Positions 16,658 to 52,688 of a stretch of 61,817 nt of DNA are shown piece after piece. How positions within the stretch are numbered: position 1 is the first letter of the stretch; each line of letters starts with the position of its first letter. The translations under genes were made by a program, and so were the position numbers. Source of the DNA: a virus; IMG/VR virus record IMGVR_UViG_3300046007_013304, positions 1 to 61,817 of that record; one strand, given 5' to 3'. Under the pieces are notes generated by a model. The model saw nothing but the letters and a program-made list of their open reading frames with translations, did no database searches and was not told the origin of the DNA.

Positions 16658-19600
16658 ATGGAAAAATATCTACCAGAATGGTTCAATGAAGATGAATTTG
16701 AGACTTTTCTTTCTGAAGGTCCCCTGACCAGACAAGCATGGATCAAGGGAATAAAAAGATGGAGAAGGACCCGTTTCATGCTCAAGCAGATGCTCGGGAA
16801 GACACCGATGAAGTACATCTCAAGGGCGATGAGATCAAAACACGCGATAATGGCTCGTACAGCCGTTCAGAACGCAAGGGACATACAAGCAGCACAAGAC
16901 AGAGAGGAAAAAATGGACGCAGCGAGAAACTTTATAAGACAAGAGGATGTTACTGTTGATTTTGGCAAACTACTCGCTGAAAAACTATTCGGCGGTTCAC
17001 AGACCGCATTCAGTCTAGGAACAAAATCATCGGCAGGTGAAAGGGCTTCCATGAGGAATCCCACCGGCGACCCCAAAAAACAGGCTAGATTGAAAAAAAG
17101 ATTTCAAAGGGAAGATGACAGAAAGAACAGTCACCAAACAAATGAATCTTTCATATTTGAAGAGAATAAAAAATCATCTTCTAATCAACCCAGTGCTTCC
17201 GGTCCAAAAGGTTCACCAAAAACAGGCGGTAAAAAATTAACCAATGAAGAAAAAATCAAAAAAGGTGATCTCAGTCCTGTTGTCGTGATAAAAACAAAGG
17301 ATGGCAAAGTAAAAATTGCAAGTAGAGATTCCTTGGCAAGTTTCAAGACTGGATATAAAATTTTGAAGAACAAGAAACCCGGAGAGATAAAATCTCCTGG
17401 CGATCTGATGCATTATATTGCCGGTAAAGAAGGAAAATTCGAGAGAACCGAAACATATAATGTGATATTCAACAACAAACCAGTCGAGGAAGTATTAGGC
17501 ATAAAGAAAGATGAAGAGGAACCCAGAAAGAGGGAACAAAGATCAAGAGGCTCACAAAGAAAACAACAAAAGAAAGACGATCAGCAACAAAAGTCAAAGG
17601 TTCCACCTGTTTTGCCACCAGAAAGACAAACAGGACCAACAGTATTGCCATATGATCAAAATGAAAATGCACCTCAACTTGCGCAATATGTCGATGATCC
17701 GGAAACAACCGAAAGATTGCAAGAACTGGGTTGGTTTGGCAAGGATGGTCGTGAACTTGAAGCAATTCAAAGAGAAGTCGATTCAAATCCATGGATGACT
17801 GAAGCTGGAAGAAGATCAAGAGCAGCCATGCTCTCGTTAGCTAAGGGATCAAATCCTGTTTTATCCAGTTATAAAGATGAAGATCTAGTCACTCTCCGCA
17901 TTGGAATGATGCGAGGAATGATGAAGATGAGTAAATTATACGAAAAAATGGGTGCTAGAGATACCACATCGAAAGCAGATTATGTGGTATTCCCCAAAGA
18001 ATATCTTGACATATTTGCCAAGTATATCTCGGGTCAAAAAATAAGATCAGATCTGAGCAAGTTGAATTTTGCCGGTAAAGAAAAACTAAAAAGTGAAGAA
18101 GATATAAAAAACAGCGAAAAATTGGGCGATGAATTAATAAAGTTCTTGAGTTCCCAGAAAACAGATATGGGGCTCCCAAAGGAAGAATTAAAAAACTTCG
18201 TGGCGTTCTTGAAATCAAAGAGCTTTGAAGATTTTTCCCCTGAGAATGCTCAAGCTTTACTTGAATATCTAAAAGCAAAACGACAAGATGGTGTTCTCTC
18301 AAAAGAAGATTATCAAAAGTTTTCAAAATATCTGAAAGAGGAAGTCATTGAAGAAGAGCTTCCTGAAGAACTTTTGGCTATGACATTCGGTATATCTCAT
18401 AAAGCAGGAAAATCCCAACTTGCATCGTCTGCATTGACAGAAACAATTGCTGTCATTGAGGATGTCAAAGAAATGTTGGGTGGGGTATTAAATGAAATAC
18501 CGCCAGAACTCATGGAGCTTATTCAAGATTTCAATAGGCTAAAAAATTCCATGAATGGCCAAAATGCATTCAAAATTTTGAATACTAATTTTGGTAAAAG
18601 TAAAATTCAAAAAATGTCGAGGGGAAGAGCAACAAGTTATGATGCACGAAATCAGTCAAATCTTGTTGCAGCACAGGAATTTTTCAACAGTAGTAACCCA
18701 ATAGTAAAAGAAATTAAGGAAAAAATTGCGGAATTGATGAAAAATAGGTTTGTGCAGGCGGCGTTTGTTTATGCATTTGGAACTGGTAAAGGAAAATTTG
18801 ACAAAAACTCTCTAGGTGTTGCTCAGGGTATTTTCTTTGCGGACGAAAGAGGCGAAGCAGTGGGATCGATGATGTTCCCGACAAATTTTGCTGACGCAAT
18901 AAGAGACCCCAAATTCATGAAATTTGCTGCAAGCCACAAGATGAACAGCAGAGCAAAATCGTGGGGAAGCGACGGATCTAGAACGATCTCCCCATTCAGT
19001 TCAAGAGTCGAGATGGGCAGGAATGGTCCACAAGGTTTTTTTTCTCCACAGAACCTGATAGCATCATATGATCCTTTAGCCGACAGGGAACTCGATAATC
19101 TATTTGAATACACATTTTTACCCCCTGATCAAACAGTAAGTGTTGAGTCCCCACCATCATCAGAATTCATGCCTCCGCTTGGATCCGATACTCAATTTGC
19201 GGGGTTTTCTCAAAATGACGGTGGAGAATTCGAGTTTACGCTAGAAAATATTCTTCCTGTATTAGCTCAACTGGGTCTCATTCAAGATATAGATTTTGAT
19301 GTTTTGGATTATACCGAATTAGGCATGAAGTTATCATCCATGCAAAATCCAATAAAAAATGTCGTTACCGTAAACGGCAGGGAATATGCAATTCCGGTTT
19401 TTGATGTTGAATTGGCAGAGGAATTATTCAACAGTTATGATAACATAAATGAAACGGTTATTGAGATGTTAAACGATGGTTTGGAATATGAAGATGCTGT
19501 TGAGATCTTTAAAAACGAAATCAGTTCCTTGTTGGAAGGTAAAAGAAACTACAAGAGAGAGTATCGTCTTTTCCATGGAAAACCGGAACAGAGGGCAAAA

Positions 19601-19915
19601 AGAAGCAAAAGAGTATTAGCCAGAAGAAAAATGGCAAAGAAATTAGGTAAGAATGCAATCAAAGGAAAAGATATAGACCACAAGGACGGAAATGCTCTCA
19701 ATAACGGCGATTCTAATTTGAGAGTCAGATCCATAAATAAAAACCGGGCAGACAATGGTCATTCAAAGAAAAAAATATCTGAGATGTGGGGTGCCGGACT
19801 TGAAGGTTCGGGGGAATTGACCGCAAAGTGGTTGAAACAAACACCCGGACAATGGCAGATGATTGATCCAAAACTATTAAAACTTCTATTAAAGAATAAA
19901 GGAAAAAGCAGATGA
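16658..19915 (+). CDS. Giant candidate packaged protein with C-terminal HNH domain
   Basis: 1085 residues. The N-terminus ends in FLSE (17-20), a possible prohead-protease site. A basic segment (KGIKRWRRTRF) and a long, mostly charged region with disordered stretches (120-330) follow. The C-terminal 120 residues form an HNH nuclease-like domain: HGKPEQRAKRSKRVLARRK, then IDHKDGNALNN (D1007, H1008) and NLRVRSINKNR. Similar HNH tails occur on large virion proteins of T4-like aquatic phages, as far as I recall. I infer a virion or head protein that may carry a nuclease into the host. The middle matches nothing I know. Confidence 0.7.
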   Translation: MEKYLPEWFNEDEFETFLSEGPLTRQAWIKGIKRWRRTRFMLKQMLGKTPMKYISRAMRSKHAIMARTAVQNARDIQAAQDREEKMDAARNFIRQEDVTVDFGKLLAEKLFGGSQTAFSLGTKSSAGERASMRNPTGDPKKQARLKKRFQREDDRKNSHQTNESFIFEENKKSSSNQPSASGPKGSPKTGGKKLTNEEKIKKGDLSPVVVIKTKDGKVKIASRDSLASFKTGYKILKNKKPGEIKSPGDLMHYIAGKEGKFERTETYNVIFNNKPVEEVLGIKKDEEEPRKREQRSRGSQRKQQKKDDQQQKSKVPPVLPPERQTGPTVLPYDQNENAPQLAQYVDDPETTERLQELGWFGKDGRELEAIQREVDSNPWMTEAGRRSRAAMLSLAKGSNPVLSSYKDEDLVTLRIGMMRGMMKMSKLYEKMGARDTTSKADYVVFPKEYLDIFAKYISGQKIRSDLSKLNFAGKEKLKSEEDIKNSEKLGDELIKFLSSQKTDMGLPKEELKNFVAFLKSKSFEDFSPENAQALLEYLKAKRQDGVLSKEDYQKFSKYLKEEVIEEELPEELLAMTFGISHKAGKSQLASSALTETIAVIEDVKEMLGGVLNEIPPELMELIQDFNRLKNSMNGQNAFKILNTNFGKSKIQKMSRGRATSYDARNQSNLVAAQEFFNSSNPIVKEIKEKIAELMKNRFVQAAFVYAFGTGKGKFDKNSLGVAQGIFFADERGEAVGSMMFPTNFADAIRDPKFMKFAASHKMNSRAKSWGSDGSRTISPFSSRVEMGRNGPQGFFSPQNLIASYDPLADRELDNLFEYTFLPPDQTVSVESPPSSEFMPPLGSDTQFAGFSQNDGGEFEFTLENILPVLAQLGLIQDIDFDVLDYTELGMKLSSMQNPIKNVVTVNGREYAIPVFDVELAEELFNSYDNINETVIEMLNDGLEYEDAVEIFKNEISSLLEGKRNYKREYRLFHGKPEQRAKRSKRVLARRKMAKKLGKNAIKGKDIDHKDGNALNNGDSNLRVRSINKNRADNGHSKKKISEMWGAGLEGSGELTAKWLKQTPGQWQMIDPKLLKLLLKNKGKSR

Positions 19916-21121: not shown

Positions 21122-21505
21122 GTGAGGTTCAGAGATCCATTGACACAAGATAATTTCCTGCTCTTCGCCATGAAATTTTATGAAAATCCTGCATGTAAAA
21201 ACATGGAGGAATTCATGGAAGATTTAGAGAGAATAAAATACATAAAAAGACTCCTAAATAAATTTGAAAAAAAGGATTCTCTGAAAGAAAGACTGATTCT
21301 AAATCATATAATCATATTGAACAATGTTTTTGGTCCAGAAGCCTGCAGTAGAATTCTTTTTTTCAAGTTAGAACCGGAATATCATTCATGTCTGAAATCC
21401 TTCCTTCATTATCTTCAAATACTTCCCAGACAGATTCCGGAAATAGATTTGAGTTTAATTCCAAGGGATCACAGGATAGACCAAATTTTGAAGGAAATTC
21501 GTTAA
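21122..21505 (+). CDS. Conserved T4-like phage protein of unknown function
   Basis: 127 residues from the GTG at 21122, two bases after the previous stop. The helical segment LILNHIIILNNVFGPEACSRILFFKLE is a signature I recall from a small conserved protein found in many T4-like phages of aquatic bacteria. The function is not established. The last 118 bases are shared, in another frame, with the next gene. Confidence 0.7.
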   Translation: MRFRDPLTQDNFLLFAMKFYENPACKNMEEFMEDLERIKYIKRLLNKFEKKDSLKERLILNHIIILNNVFGPEACSRILFFKLEPEYHSCLKSFLHYLQILPRQIPEIDLSLIPRDHRIDQILKEIR

Positions 21506-22014
21506 ACGAAAGCTGGTCTGCCATCGTAACCTCGTTTACGGTGTATAAATTAATGTCCGAAATCATCAAGCCTTTCACATCGATGAAAGCTTATAAAGCC
21601 AAACTTATTGATGAAAACGGAAATTTGCTCAAAAAAGAAGAAGAACTAACTAACAGCGAAGCATCAATTCTCAGCCCATTCACCAGATTGGTCATTGGAA
21701 TAAAGAGATTAGTCAATGCATTGCCTGCAAACCGATATAAATCAGAATTTGGTTATATTCAGACTGCGGCAAGAGCAATGGCGTTTGAATGTGTTGAACT
21801 TGGTGGAGATGAAAGATTATTTTTAGAAGAACTTGAAAAATCATTGGATATTCTTCTGGAAGACGGCGAGGGATCTGCAGGGATCGGAAATGTAGCGGGT
21901 GGTGGTTTTTCAAATCCACAAGTGGGAGAACCAAATACCGCCCTTGCAGGATACAGTCCACCCATGAATATCACACAAAGAAAGAAAAAAATAATAAAGA
22001 GAGAAATAAAATGA
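21388..22014 (+). CDS. Conserved late protein with capsid-arm-like C-terminus
   Basis: 208 residues. The central region (FTVYKLMSEIIKPFTSMKAYKAKLIDENG, then RLVIGIKRLVNALP) resembles a protein conserved in T4-like cyanophages. The C-terminal part has LLE (156-158) and then GGGFSNPQVGEPNTALAGYSP (171-191), nearly the same as residues 62-82 of the major capsid protein of this phage. The start at 21388 gives a 118-base overlap with the gene before; a later ATG at 21553 would remove part of the conserved region. ATGA links it to the next gene. I infer a head-associated protein. Confidence 0.65.
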   Translation: MSEILPSLSSNTSQTDSGNRFEFNSKGSQDRPNFEGNSLNESWSAIVTSFTVYKLMSEIIKPFTSMKAYKAKLIDENGNLLKKEEELTNSEASILSPFTRLVIGIKRLVNALPANRYKSEFGYIQTAARAMAFECVELGGDERLFLEELEKSLDILLEDGEGSAGIGNVAGGGFSNPQVGEPNTALAGYSPPMNITQRKKKIIKREIK

Positions 22015-44997: not shown

Positions 44998-45515
44998 GTA
45001 GTTTAGATCTAATCAAATTCGCAGCAAACGAAAACCATGTTAAATTTCGTTCAGCATTGAACGAAATGCTTTATGCAAAACTTTCTTATGTGATTAAGGA
45101 ATCCACAATCGACATGATTTCTGAAGTCTTCAATGTTGAAAGATTGCAGGAATCTTCCGACCTTGTTGATTACATCAATAATGTCATTTCAGAAGCCGAA
45201 GAACGACTGGGAACTGAATTCACCGAACAAGAAATCAGCGAAAGCGTTTCTTATATCATCTCTCTTCTAGAAAAGAAAAAGGAAGAAGATGAAGACGAGG
45301 AAGATGAAGATAAGAAAAAGAGCAAGAAGAAAAAATCCCACAAGAAAAAATCAAAGAAAAAAGATGATGAGGATGAGGACGAAGACGAGGAAGATGAAGA
45401 CGAAAAGGACGAGGAAGAGGAAGAAGAGGAAGAAGAGGAAGATAAAGTCAAGAAGAAAAATGGTAAAATTTTTCACTTTGACATAAATTCTCACAACAAG
45501 GAAAAAGATAAATGA
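44994..45515 (+). CDS. Acidic/Lys-rich prohead core protein, gp67/gp68-like
   Basis: 173 residues. The N-terminal half (1-92) is helical, with a possible protease site LNE at 22-24 and the module DLVDYINNVISEAEERL shared with the protein at 14057. From residue 94 it consists almost only of Glu/Asp/Lys (EEDEDEEDEDKKKSKKKKS and on), like the highly charged core proteins of T4 that are degraded to peptides during maturation. ATGA overlap with the protease gene. Confidence 0.7.
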   Translation: MSSLDLIKFAANENHVKFRSALNEMLYAKLSYVIKESTIDMISEVFNVERLQESSDLVDYINNVISEAEERLGTEFTEQEISESVSYIISLLEKKKEEDEDEEDEDKKKSKKKKSHKKKSKKKDDEDEDEDEEDEDEKDEEEEEEEEEEDKVKKKNGKIFHFDINSHNKEKDK

Positions 45516-46171
45516 AACTAATCACAGAAATGAACGAGGACATTTCTTTCGTAGTCGAAGGAAATGAAAATGGAAAAAAGAAGTTTGCCATCGAAGGCGT
45601 TTTCATGCAATCCGATACCGTGAACAGAAACGGTAGAGTTTATCCTCGTACCATACTGGAAAACGAGGTAAATCGTTACAGCAAAAAATATGTCAATGAA
45701 AACAGAGCTCTTGGTGAATTAAACCATCCATCAGGACCCACTGTGAATCTTGACAAAGTTTCACATCTTATAACCAACCTGAGAATGGAAGGAAAAGATG
45801 TCATCGGTAAGGCTAAACTTCTGGAAACTCCATGTGGTCTAATTGCCCAAAATCTATTAGAGGCAGGGGTAAAATTAGGAGTTTCTTCCCGTGGCATGGG
45901 AAGTCTCAAGGAAAGCAGGGGTTATAAGGAAGTTCAAAAAGATTTTATGCTTTCAGCCGTGGATTTAGTGGCTGATCCATCCGCTCCAAATGCCTTTGTC
46001 AACGGCATAATGGAAGGAGTAGAATGGATTTGGGACAATGGAGTTCTAAAACAAGAAGTTGTCGAGAATTACAGACAAATTGTAAAAAGAGCCCCATCCA
46101 AAAAACTACAAGAAACTGCAGTAAATGTGTTTGAAGACTTTATGAGAAAACTCTCAAAAGGTAAAAAATAA
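45512..46171 (+). CDS. 21: Prohead maturation protease gp21
   Basis: 219 residues (T4 gp21 is 212). Catalytic segments of this herpes-protease-fold family are present: GELNHP (H72), GVSSRG (123-128, containing the catalytic Ser) and LVADPSAP (D155). It cuts scaffold, core, capsid and internal proteins after Glu in (I/L)-x-E sites, as known for T4. Several proteins in this window carry such sites near their N-termini. Confidence 0.95.
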   Translation: MKLITEMNEDISFVVEGNENGKKKFAIEGVFMQSDTVNRNGRVYPRTILENEVNRYSKKYVNENRALGELNHPSGPTVNLDKVSHLITNLRMEGKDVIGKAKLLETPCGLIAQNLLEAGVKLGVSSRGMGSLKESRGYKEVQKDFMLSAVDLVADPSAPNAFVNGIMEGVEWIWDNGVLKQEVVENYRQIVKRAPSKKLQETAVNVFEDFMRKLSKGKK

Positions 46172-47215: not shown

Positions 47216-48712
47216 ATGGACTTTTCATCAGAAACTACAGCTTATGATAATCTAGTTGAAAAGTGGGAGCCAGTGCTCAGTCACGATGCTCTTCCACGCA
47301 TCAACGATTACGATAGAAAGAGAACCACCGCAGTCCTTCTTGAAAATCAAGAAAAGGCAATGCGTGAACAGTACCTCGCAGAATACGGCAACGAAATGGG
47401 TGGAGCATTCATGAACCCCCAAGTCGGCACCCCGAACACCGCTCTCGCTGGTTACAGCCCCGTGCTCATCAGCCTCGTTCGTCGTGCAATGCCTAACCTA
47501 CTTGCTTACGATATCGCTGGCGTGCAGCCAATGACTGCTCCCACCGGTCTTATCTTTGCAATGCGTTCACGCTACGGCACCCAAGACCAATTCAAGGCAA
47601 CCAACGAAGGTGGTTCACCAAACGATATCCAAAATCGTCAAAAGAACGAAGCACTCTTCCAGTCTGCATATTCACCGTTCTCAGGTCGTGGTGGTACATT
47701 TGGCGACACTACCAAGGGTGGAACCTTTGGTGCAGCAGTGTTTGAGAAAGATAACCTCAGCATCAACGCTGTTCGTGATCTACCTTGGGATGAAGGTGGA
47801 TTCGGTATCGGTAAATCAGGAACCAACAACTGGGAAGCTTTCCGTGGTATGTTGACTTCTGAAGCCGAACAACTCGGCGGATCAGGAAAGCCAGCTTTCC
47901 AAGAAATGTCAATCACCATCGAAAGACTTGCAGTCGAAGCTCGTAGCCGTGCTTTGAAGGCAGAATACACAACTGAGCTCGCTCAGGACCTCAAGGCTGT
48001 TCACGGTCTCGATGCCGAAACCGAACTTGCTAACATTCTTTCACAAGAAATTCTCCACGAAATCAATCGTGAAGTTCTCTACACCATCTACCGTGTAGCA
48101 AAGCAAGGTGGCAACCAAGGCGACCTCAAGACCTCCGGTACTTACGATCTCGTCTTCGACTCAGACGGTCGTTGGTCAGCCGAACGCTTCCGTGGCCTCA
48201 TGTTCCAACTCGAAAGAGAAGCAAATGTGATCGCCAAGGAAACTCGTCGCGGTAAGGGTAACTTCGTTGTTTGCTCAAGCGATGTTGCTTCAGCCCTCGC
48301 AATGGGTGGCTACCTCAACATCAGCCCGGCACTCAATGTGAACCTCGAAGTCGATGACACCGGCAATATCTTTGCTGGCGTTCTCAACAACAAGTTCCGC
48401 GTCTTCATCGATCCCTATGCACCAACCGGCGTTAACTTCGCTCTCGTTGGCTACAAGGGTCAAGTGGCTTACGATGCAGGTATCTTCTACTGCCCGTATG
48501 TTCCTCTACAGATGTTCCGCTCAGTCGGTCAAGACACCTTCCAACCGAAGATTGGCTTCAAGACCCGCTACGGCATGGTCTCCAATCCGTTTGCTGAAGA
48601 TACCGCAACCACCAGTGTTGGTACTACTGCCAAGGGCAACCAATACTACCGTCTCTTGAAGATTGATAATCTTCACGGTATGGGTATCACTGGTGGTCTC
48701 CAGATCTCATGA
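47216..48712 (+). CDS. 23: Major capsid protein gp23
   Basis: 498 residues (T4 gp23 is 521). Characteristic strings are VRRAMPNLLAYDIAGVQPMTAPTGLIFAMRSRYG and the later ERFRGLMFQLEREANVIAKETRRGKGNFVVCSSDVASAL. A propeptide similar to that of T4 is present; the likely gp21 site is LAE at 54-56. The codons are markedly richer in C/G at the third position than in the neighbouring late genes, as expected for the most abundant protein. A strong terminator follows. Confidence 0.97.
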   Translation: MDFSSETTAYDNLVEKWEPVLSHDALPRINDYDRKRTTAVLLENQEKAMREQYLAEYGNEMGGAFMNPQVGTPNTALAGYSPVLISLVRRAMPNLLAYDIAGVQPMTAPTGLIFAMRSRYGTQDQFKATNEGGSPNDIQNRQKNEALFQSAYSPFSGRGGTFGDTTKGGTFGAAVFEKDNLSINAVRDLPWDEGGFGIGKSGTNNWEAFRGMLTSEAEQLGGSGKPAFQEMSITIERLAVEARSRALKAEYTTELAQDLKAVHGLDAETELANILSQEILHEINREVLYTIYRVAKQGGNQGDLKTSGTYDLVFDSDGRWSAERFRGLMFQLEREANVIAKETRRGKGNFVVCSSDVASALAMGGYLNISPALNVNLEVDDTGNIFAGVLNNKFRVFIDPYAPTGVNFALVGYKGQVAYDAGIFYCPYVPLQMFRSVGQDTFQPKIGFKTRYGMVSNPFAEDTATTSVGTTAKGNQYYRLLKIDNLHGMGITGGLQIS

Positions 48713-52013: not shown

Positions 52014-52688
52014 ATGAAATCTTTTCGTGACTACATTTCGGAGGATATATTTTTAAGATCAGCCAAAAAAAGAACTGATGTAAGTCCCGGTCAAAATTTT
52101 TCTCCTTTTTATGCCAAATATCACACAATTTTAGATTCAGACAGATTACAAAAACATTATGATCAAATAAAATCTTTTCGTCACAGGGGAATGCAATTTA
52201 AATTGCTTTCTACTAGAGATGAGGATCTAAAGGAAAGAATGTTTATTATTGCTCATGTCGGAGAAGATAATAAATTAAGAGACATTGGCAGGGTTGGCGT
52301 TTTGGTGGGAAATAAAAAAGAACTCATAAATGATAGAGTTCAGACTCAGCTTGGAAGAAAACCAGAAGCTATAAGCCTGGAACCAGAGCTTCATGAAGAT
52401 TTTACAGGTAAGGGATTGATGTCCAGAGTCTATAAAATGATTGCAAAACACCACAAAGTTGATATTATATCAGACTTAGACCAGACCAAAGGGTCCAAAA
52501 AAATTTGGGATGAATTGGCTAAGACAGGCAGAGTAAGAGGTGTTCACACCAGAGGTGAAAGAGAACCTTTCTCTTATGATCCAAAAAATGAAGATCATGT
52601 CAACACAATCTATACTGATTTCAACCCAAGAGACAAGGAAATGCCGACCAGCAGAGGAAACAGTTATCTACTTCATTATACTCACTGA
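52014..52688 (+). CDS. Candidate packaged GNAT-like protein with T4-type targeting peptide
   Basis: 224 residues. The first ten, MKSFRDYISE, are strikingly like the MKTYQEFIAE capsid-targeting peptide of T4 internal proteins, including the final x-S/A-E cleavage site for gp21. After a short basic stretch, the segment ELHEDFTGKGLMSRVYKMIAKHHKVDIISDLDQTKGSKKIWDELAKTG looks like the acetyl-CoA-binding and C-terminal part of a GNAT acetyltransferase. I infer an enzyme placed in the head and injected with DNA. The assignment to GNAT is by pattern only. Confidence 0.65.
   Translation: MKSFRDYISEDIFLRSAKKRTDVSPGQNFSPFYAKYHTILDSDRLQKHYDQIKSFRHRGMQFKLLSTRDEDLKERMFIIAHVGEDNKLRDIGRVGVLVGNKKELINDRVQTQLGRKPEAISLEPELHEDFTGKGLMSRVYKMIAKHHKVDIISDLDQTKGSKKIWDELAKTGRVRGVHTRGEREPFSYDPKNEDHVNTIYTDFNPRDKEMPTSRGNSYLLHYTH

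Follow-up and report, generated by a model that had tools for sequence, protein, structure and literature searches.

The protein encoded by open reading frame (ORF) 21388-22014 carries a copy of a segment from the N-terminal arm of the same virus's major capsid protein and, as alignments across lineages indicate, such resemblance to the own capsid arm is common, but not universal, in the gp61.1-type family to which this protein belongs. The DNA analysed here, called the window, is the full 61,817 nucleotides of IMGVR_UViG_3300046007_013304, a 61.8-kb virus record with a T4-like head gene set. We suspect, with slightly more belief than doubt, that ORF 21388 encodes the window's equivalent of T4 gp61.1: a protein of the head interior with a detachable copy of the own capsid N-terminus that would dock in the shell. 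The features concerned are as follows.

21122..21505, + strand: DUF7207 / phrog_407 gene, conserved neighbour of the gp61.1-type gene
21388..22014, + strand: gp61.1-type protein, 208 aa from the first ATG (phrog_18642 and phrog_2086 matches)
21520..21738, + strand: N-terminal helical domain (residues 45-117), common to the family (PHROG matches, AlphaFold2 model)
21853..21861, + strand: LLE (residues 156-158), putative gp21-type cleavage site (L/I-X-E rule in T4)
21898..21960, + strand: copy of the capsid N-terminal arm (residues 171-191; alignment with the own capsid protein)
21961..22011, + strand: basic C-terminal tail, PMNITQRKKKIIKREIK
45512..46171, + strand: prohead maturation protease (gp21 type), presumed processing enzyme (phrog_207, E 1e-79)
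47216..48712, + strand: gp23-type major capsid protein, the matching partner (Pfam Gp23, E 1e-134)
47375..47383, + strand: LAE (residues 54-56) of the capsid protein, putative gp21-type cleavage site
47399..47461, + strand: N-terminal arm segment of the capsid protein (residues 62-82; own-pair alignment)

Profile matches place the protein in the gp61.1-type family; it is not a capsid protein. Its residues 45-122 match the PHROG profiles phrog_18642 (E 8.6e-14) and phrog_2086 (E 9.3e-13), both families without an assigned function, and no Pfam match to the Gp23 (HK97-type) capsid domain was found in its 208 aa. Given that the ORF overlaps the upstream DUF7207 ORF by 118 nt and that family similarity begins at residue ~45, the true start may lie downstream of 21388, possibly near residue 45. 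An AlphaFold2 model built from an alignment of 35 relatives has a confident helical part at about residues 45-110 (pLDDT >= 90 over about residues 50-110) and a disordered tail. Searching the PDB for folds like the helical domain gave no useful match and none that was capsid-like, and the same search of BFVD returned a few uncharacterised phage proteins. When the family profile was run against PDB sequences, a chance match to a nuclear-pore protein was all that it produced. Elsewhere in the window, a 1085-aa ORF (16658-19915) matches HNH endonuclease profiles over its last ~120 residues (phrog_4590, function unknown, E 2.6e-17; phrog_4578 and HNH_3 weakly), and has the appearance of a structural or uncharacterised protein to which an HNH module has been joined.

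The copy (residues 171-191, GGGFSNPQVGEPNTALAGYSP) and residues 62-82 of the window capsid protein (GGAFMNPQVGTPNTALAGYSP) are identical at 18/21 amino acids and 41/63 nucleotides. The preliminary description had reported this shared segment, and the pair stands as reported apart from its coordinates in the smaller gene: 21901-21963 is one codon late, and residues 171-191 correspond to 21898-21960. Chance is excluded as the source of the match: the raw BLOSUM62 score of the own-pair alignment is 108, whereas shuffled sequences averaged about 22 (p<=0.0005), and when all six frames of the window were scanned with a regular expression, the motif turned up in no genes beyond ORF 21388-22014 and the capsid ORF. 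Different codons are used at 14 of the 18 identical residues, where 12.8 +/- 1.9 would be expected under codon independence, and a recent DNA copy or gene conversion was rejected on these codon differences. Judged by substitution rates in Tevenvirinae, both the tail (dN/dS 0.11) and the domain (dN/dS 0.05) are under purifying selection. The earlier claim that selection keeps the protein sequence is thus borne out by both the codons and the rates.

Two observations concern capsid genes in other genomes. In Proteus phage PM2 (L221, L230), the gp23 gene lies in two frames and is broken just after the N-arm (MVRRSFP / NMIGFDIAGVQP), which suggests that the record contains a frameshift or that an intervening sequence is present. 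The G034 contig (L080, L081) has, besides an intact capsid gene, degenerate fragments of a capsid gene at a considerable distance from it.

T4 gp61.1, of 54 aa, matches phrog_1823 and, in addition, phrog_2086 over that family's C-terminal part; the latter match links it to the family of the window protein. It is conserved in over a thousand sequenced phages. T4 gp61.1 and members of phrog_2086, phrog_18642 and phrog_1823, like the window protein, combine a copy of the own capsid arm with a C-terminal lysine-rich tail. The letters of the motif differ between T4 and the window because the capsid arms themselves differ. T4 gp61.1 has a 10-residue targeting sequence in place of the helical domain, which is also missing in many cyanophages; leader, copy and basic tail remain. 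The tail is K/R-rich in the examples examined, and that of T4 is balanced by acidic residues.

Gene neighbourhoods differ as well. In Straboviridae, the gene is named gp61.1 and adjoins the primase or helicase, and in T4-type genomes it stands by the primase, whereas in the window it is flanked by the DUF7207 gene and a lipoprotein-like ORF, with no adjoining primase. The DUF7207 gene lies just before the gp61.1-type gene in the window, phiM19, BUCT-ZZ01, HTVC008M, S-CREM2 and many other cyanophages, and many cyanophages have the order DUF7207, gp61.1-type gene, one or two genes, primase. Several records annotate these small proteins as 'major head protein' or 'major capsid protein', labels that the copy of the own capsid arm accounts for. 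In the literature covered, which is incomplete, the papers that name gp61.1 give no function for it, and we found no published description of its resemblance to the capsid arm.

Alignment of both regions in relatives, a check proposed in the preliminary description, revealed that the motif letters change from lineage to lineage and nevertheless match the own capsid protein in many of them. In 11/24 lineages the tail resembles the N-terminus of the own major capsid protein (shuffle p<0.002, significant after correction), and in 9 of these 11 the own capsid arm ranked first of 24. For instance, the tail of the Serratia phage CHI14 protein reads AGDSGGDAENIASGITSGAITNKGP and its capsid protein GGDHGYDATNIAAGQTSGAVTHIGP; the corresponding pairs are DATKIATGEKSGSVT and DATKIASGETSGSIT in Aeh1, PSTNTGNI and PTTNTGNI in phiM19, DAPTNSAGSGQV and DAPTNNFGSGQV in G004, MSAGTGGFSGSANASGPVAGFDPML and MSAGTAGFSGSSTATGPVAGFDPVL in cyanophage P-RSM6, and GFTGAAAPEGPVAGYDPLM and GFTGAAAPGGPNAGFDPVM in S-CREM2, where 18/24 residues of the arm copy agree. 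When tails and arms of the 24 lineages were randomly re-paired, the observed total was reached in 0/200,000 trials (p<=5e-6), and the own-pair signal inside Straboviridae alone gave p=0.006; these p values are approximate, as the lineages share ancestry. The lineages had been picked manually from search results, and the limits of tails and arms were set by visual inspection.

Searches within and between genomes point to the same segment. T4 gp61.1 compared with the six-frame translation of T4 matched itself (E 2e-31) and gp23 (E 1.4e-5) and nothing else, and this two-match pattern was also seen in five other genomes. In the sequences of the PDB, residues 107-145 of the CHI14 protein matched residues 63-101 of T4 gp23 (E 4.7e-4). 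Numbered as in T4, the segment that is copied corresponds to gp23 66-~95, which covers the N-fist (gp23 66-91) and the start of the N-arm. We therefore rejected the idea that the motif is an oddity of the window; it is a lineage-specific feature of the gp61.1-type family. Neither of the outcomes that the preliminary description had named as counting against it, loss of the motif from close relatives or a common and unrelated segment, was found.

Universal mimicry of the own arm was dropped, as 13/24 lineages, most of them in one marine group, had no significant own-arm match. Tails of the marine group have a different conserved motif, APANSAGSGNIAGIGVGPxGEPG. The longer marine-group tail, EEDAPANSAGSGNIAGIGVGPxGEPGVSKxxQKKxKKK (e.g., L009, L125, L135), is very conserved and has no match to the own capsid arm, and no other protein of the same genomes was found to contain the motif. 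The missing match could reflect divergence or a different partner. As a candidate for a separate short carrier in marine-group genomes, phrog_3286 was rejected: in those genomes it picked up only members of the same family, and it also matched unrelated control genomes.

A second small protein (~130-140 aa) has its own N-terminal domain, and its C-terminal part repeats the gp23 segment that comes next, MARRAIPELLAKDILSVQPMN (Gol region). It is encoded at 1501-1887 of L236 (Citrobacter phage Merlin), where it is annotated 'major capsid protein', and on the minus strand of L076 (Moon-like), L233 (Aeh1) and L235 (Vibrio phage D479). With gp61.1, some phages therefore carry copies of two consecutive capsid segments.

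The gp61.1-type protein is probably an internal or virion head protein that is processed by the prohead protease, and several lines of evidence point this way. T4 gp61.1 begins with MKTFKEFIKE, which resembles the capsid-targeting sequence (CTS) of the internal proteins. The pattern MKT[FY]xEFI occurs at three sites only in the whole T4 genome, 61.1, ipII and ipIII, and the reversed control pattern had no match there. The first 10 residues of IPIII are its capsid-targeting sequence and are enough for packaging (PMC9026906). The protease gp21 cuts after L/I-X-E and needs little beyond that (PMC9026906). Across the family, an [LI]xE ending <=6 residues before the motif was found in 25/36 members, where 9.8 would be expected and at most 19 were reached in 5000 shuffles. 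The gp21-type sites that had been noted in the window, LLE before the copy and LAE before the capsid segment, are both present, and a site of this type thus recurs in the family.

The window protein's own site counts against this reading, as its LLE is 12 residues upstream of the motif and the P1' residue is Asp; Asp or Glu at P1' is common among gp61.1-type family members. The gp21 sites of T4 usually have Ala or Gly next after the site. Several cyanophages have a leader of only about 4-18 residues ahead of the site, and in Syn19 and S-P4 the protein itself begins with the copy and has no site. Read from sequence, all these arrangements would leave the copy with an N-terminus that is free or almost so, like that of the mature capsid protein.

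Virion proteomics is consistent with a location in the head. S-CREM2 gp160 was detected in the virion by mass spectrometry with 7 unique peptides (PMC10665884 Table 3), and its gene lies after DUF7207 and two genes before the primase. Because S-CREM2 gp160 has no helical domain and was identified as the counterpart by position and motif, its presence in the virion is supportive rather than conclusive backing for a head location of the gp61.1-type protein, and the peptides may stem from the long stretch at its C-terminal end. In the S-SCSM1 record, the counterpart (62 aa) carries no virion-protein mark, though its neighbours have one. Separately, window ORF 52014-52688 starts with MKSFRDYISED, which resembles the T4 capsid-targeting sequence and has an I-x-E site at residues 8-10; this ORF is a candidate for a protein of the head interior in the window phage.

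Among well-characterised head components, the T4 internal proteins are instructive. IPII and IPIII have a targeting sequence nearly identical to that of T4 gp61.1, whose own ends in an I-x-E site at residue 10, but in the stretch displayed beyond their site, unlike in gp61.1, no capsid segment is copied. The window protein, in contrast, lacks a CTS-like start: its N-terminus as read is MSEILPSL, with no CTS of the MKTYQEFIAE type. By analogy we infer that it works like a T4 internal protein, yet we do not file it with them because the CTS is missing. The N-terminus of gp23 (N-fist, N-arm) shares with gp61.1-type proteins a near-identical 20-30 residue segment after a gp21-type site, whereas the gp61.1-type protein has no HK97-fold capsid domain and a basic tail follows instead. 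Soc, Hoc and gp24 of T4 are likewise proteins other than the major capsid protein that act on the gp23 lattice. However, Soc and Hoc bind outside after expansion, and gp24 is a full paralog of the capsid protein (PMC9958956); none of the three is a short N-fist copy like that of the gp61.1-type protein.

In the mechanism that we propose, the N-terminal part (the helical domain, the 10-residue targeting sequence in T4, or a short leader in many cyanophages) would carry the protein into the prohead core. There, the gp21-type protease would cut after the [LI]xE that stands shortly before the copy while it trims the capsid protein; we infer both this cleavage and the step in maturation at which it would fall. 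The released short peptide would have a new N-terminus equivalent to that of the mature capsid protein, followed by the lysine/arginine-rich tail. It would then dock at the N-fist sites of capsid subunits, most plausibly at those without a fist of their own, next to the portal or the pentamers, and could help to lock or time shell expansion. The basic tail would face the DNA and could contact it.

Binding where the capsid arm binds is the most economical reading of the copy, and we regard it as evenly poised. Setting the head geometry, the other role suggested in the preliminary description, is neither favoured nor disfavoured by these results. For docking at the N-fist sites our belief and doubt are about equal, and the exact role there (filling vacant sites, or locking or timing expansion) is likewise presumptive. 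In T4, the N-fist binds to four subunits that belong to two capsomers and orders on expansion (PMC9958956, PMC7136217), it is disordered in the five gp23 subunits that face the portal (PMC9958956, PMC7136217), and it has been described for gp23 and not for gp24 (PMC9958956). A broader version, in which many T4-like phages have an N-fist that acts in trans, is rather less likely than docking as such: the cut peptide would fill the sites without a fist, the basic tail would tie the shell to the DNA, and the need to fit one and the same pocket would keep copy and capsid arm alike. We know of no T4 capsid map that reports extra N-fist-like density.

Some of the same evidence could be read differently. 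The protein might be packaged and delivered with the DNA as an anti-defence or decoy protein, in which the mimicked capsid segment would occupy a host factor or sensor for which the capsid protein is the target of recognition. The targeting sequence, the same as in the T4 internal proteins, and the basic tail would suit such a protein. Capsid segments are known as triggers, as when the gp23 Gol region activates Lit through EF-Tu (PMC3014915), and the second small protein of some relatives copies the adjacent Gol-region segment. However, the segment copied in gp61.1-type proteins lies just before the Gol region, and wide conservation across very different hosts, together with similarity to the own capsid, fits a phage partner better. 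We consider a decoy improbable.

A capsid-protein chaperone is improbable to a very slightly greater degree. Here the helical domain would bind the unassembled capsid arm, and the tail would be a pseudo-substrate that closes the groove until it is displaced. This would account for tail and arm changing together, and it suits a domain that is conserved (dN/dS 0.05) and confidently folded beside a disordered tail. The helical domain is, however, missing in T4 (54 aa) and many cyanophages, and a chaperone leaves the targeting sequence and the protease site unexplained.

Less likely again, the site and arm together might serve as a competing substrate that regulates the prohead protease, tuning the timing or speed of capsid propeptide removal. 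The enrichment of the [LI]xE site in the family would fit, as would the alignment of the T4-type copied region across the gp23 cleavage site (gp23 63-101). But gp23 is present in many hundreds of copies, and since gp21 needs little beyond L/I-X-E (PMC9026906), copying about 25 residues past the site would be needless; moreover, the copies of Syn19 and S-P4 stand at the protein's own N-terminus without a site. Least credible of all is a functionless relic of recombination or gene conversion, a piece of the capsid gene copied in and occasionally refreshed, which would produce lineage-specific similarity but is at odds with codons that differ as between independent genes, with purifying selection on the tail, and with the recurrence of one narrow segment, usually with a protease site before it and a basic tail after it.

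The assembly of the T4 head is among the best studied of any virus, and gp61.1 has no assigned function there. Read as an internal head protein with a detachable arm copy, gp61.1 would gain a likely location (the prohead interior), cleavage by gp21 as a processing step and the site of the capsid N-fist as its likely place of binding, and this reading is directly testable in T4. If true, it would clearly illustrate how a virus can mimic its own capsid protein to control or finish the assembly of its shell.
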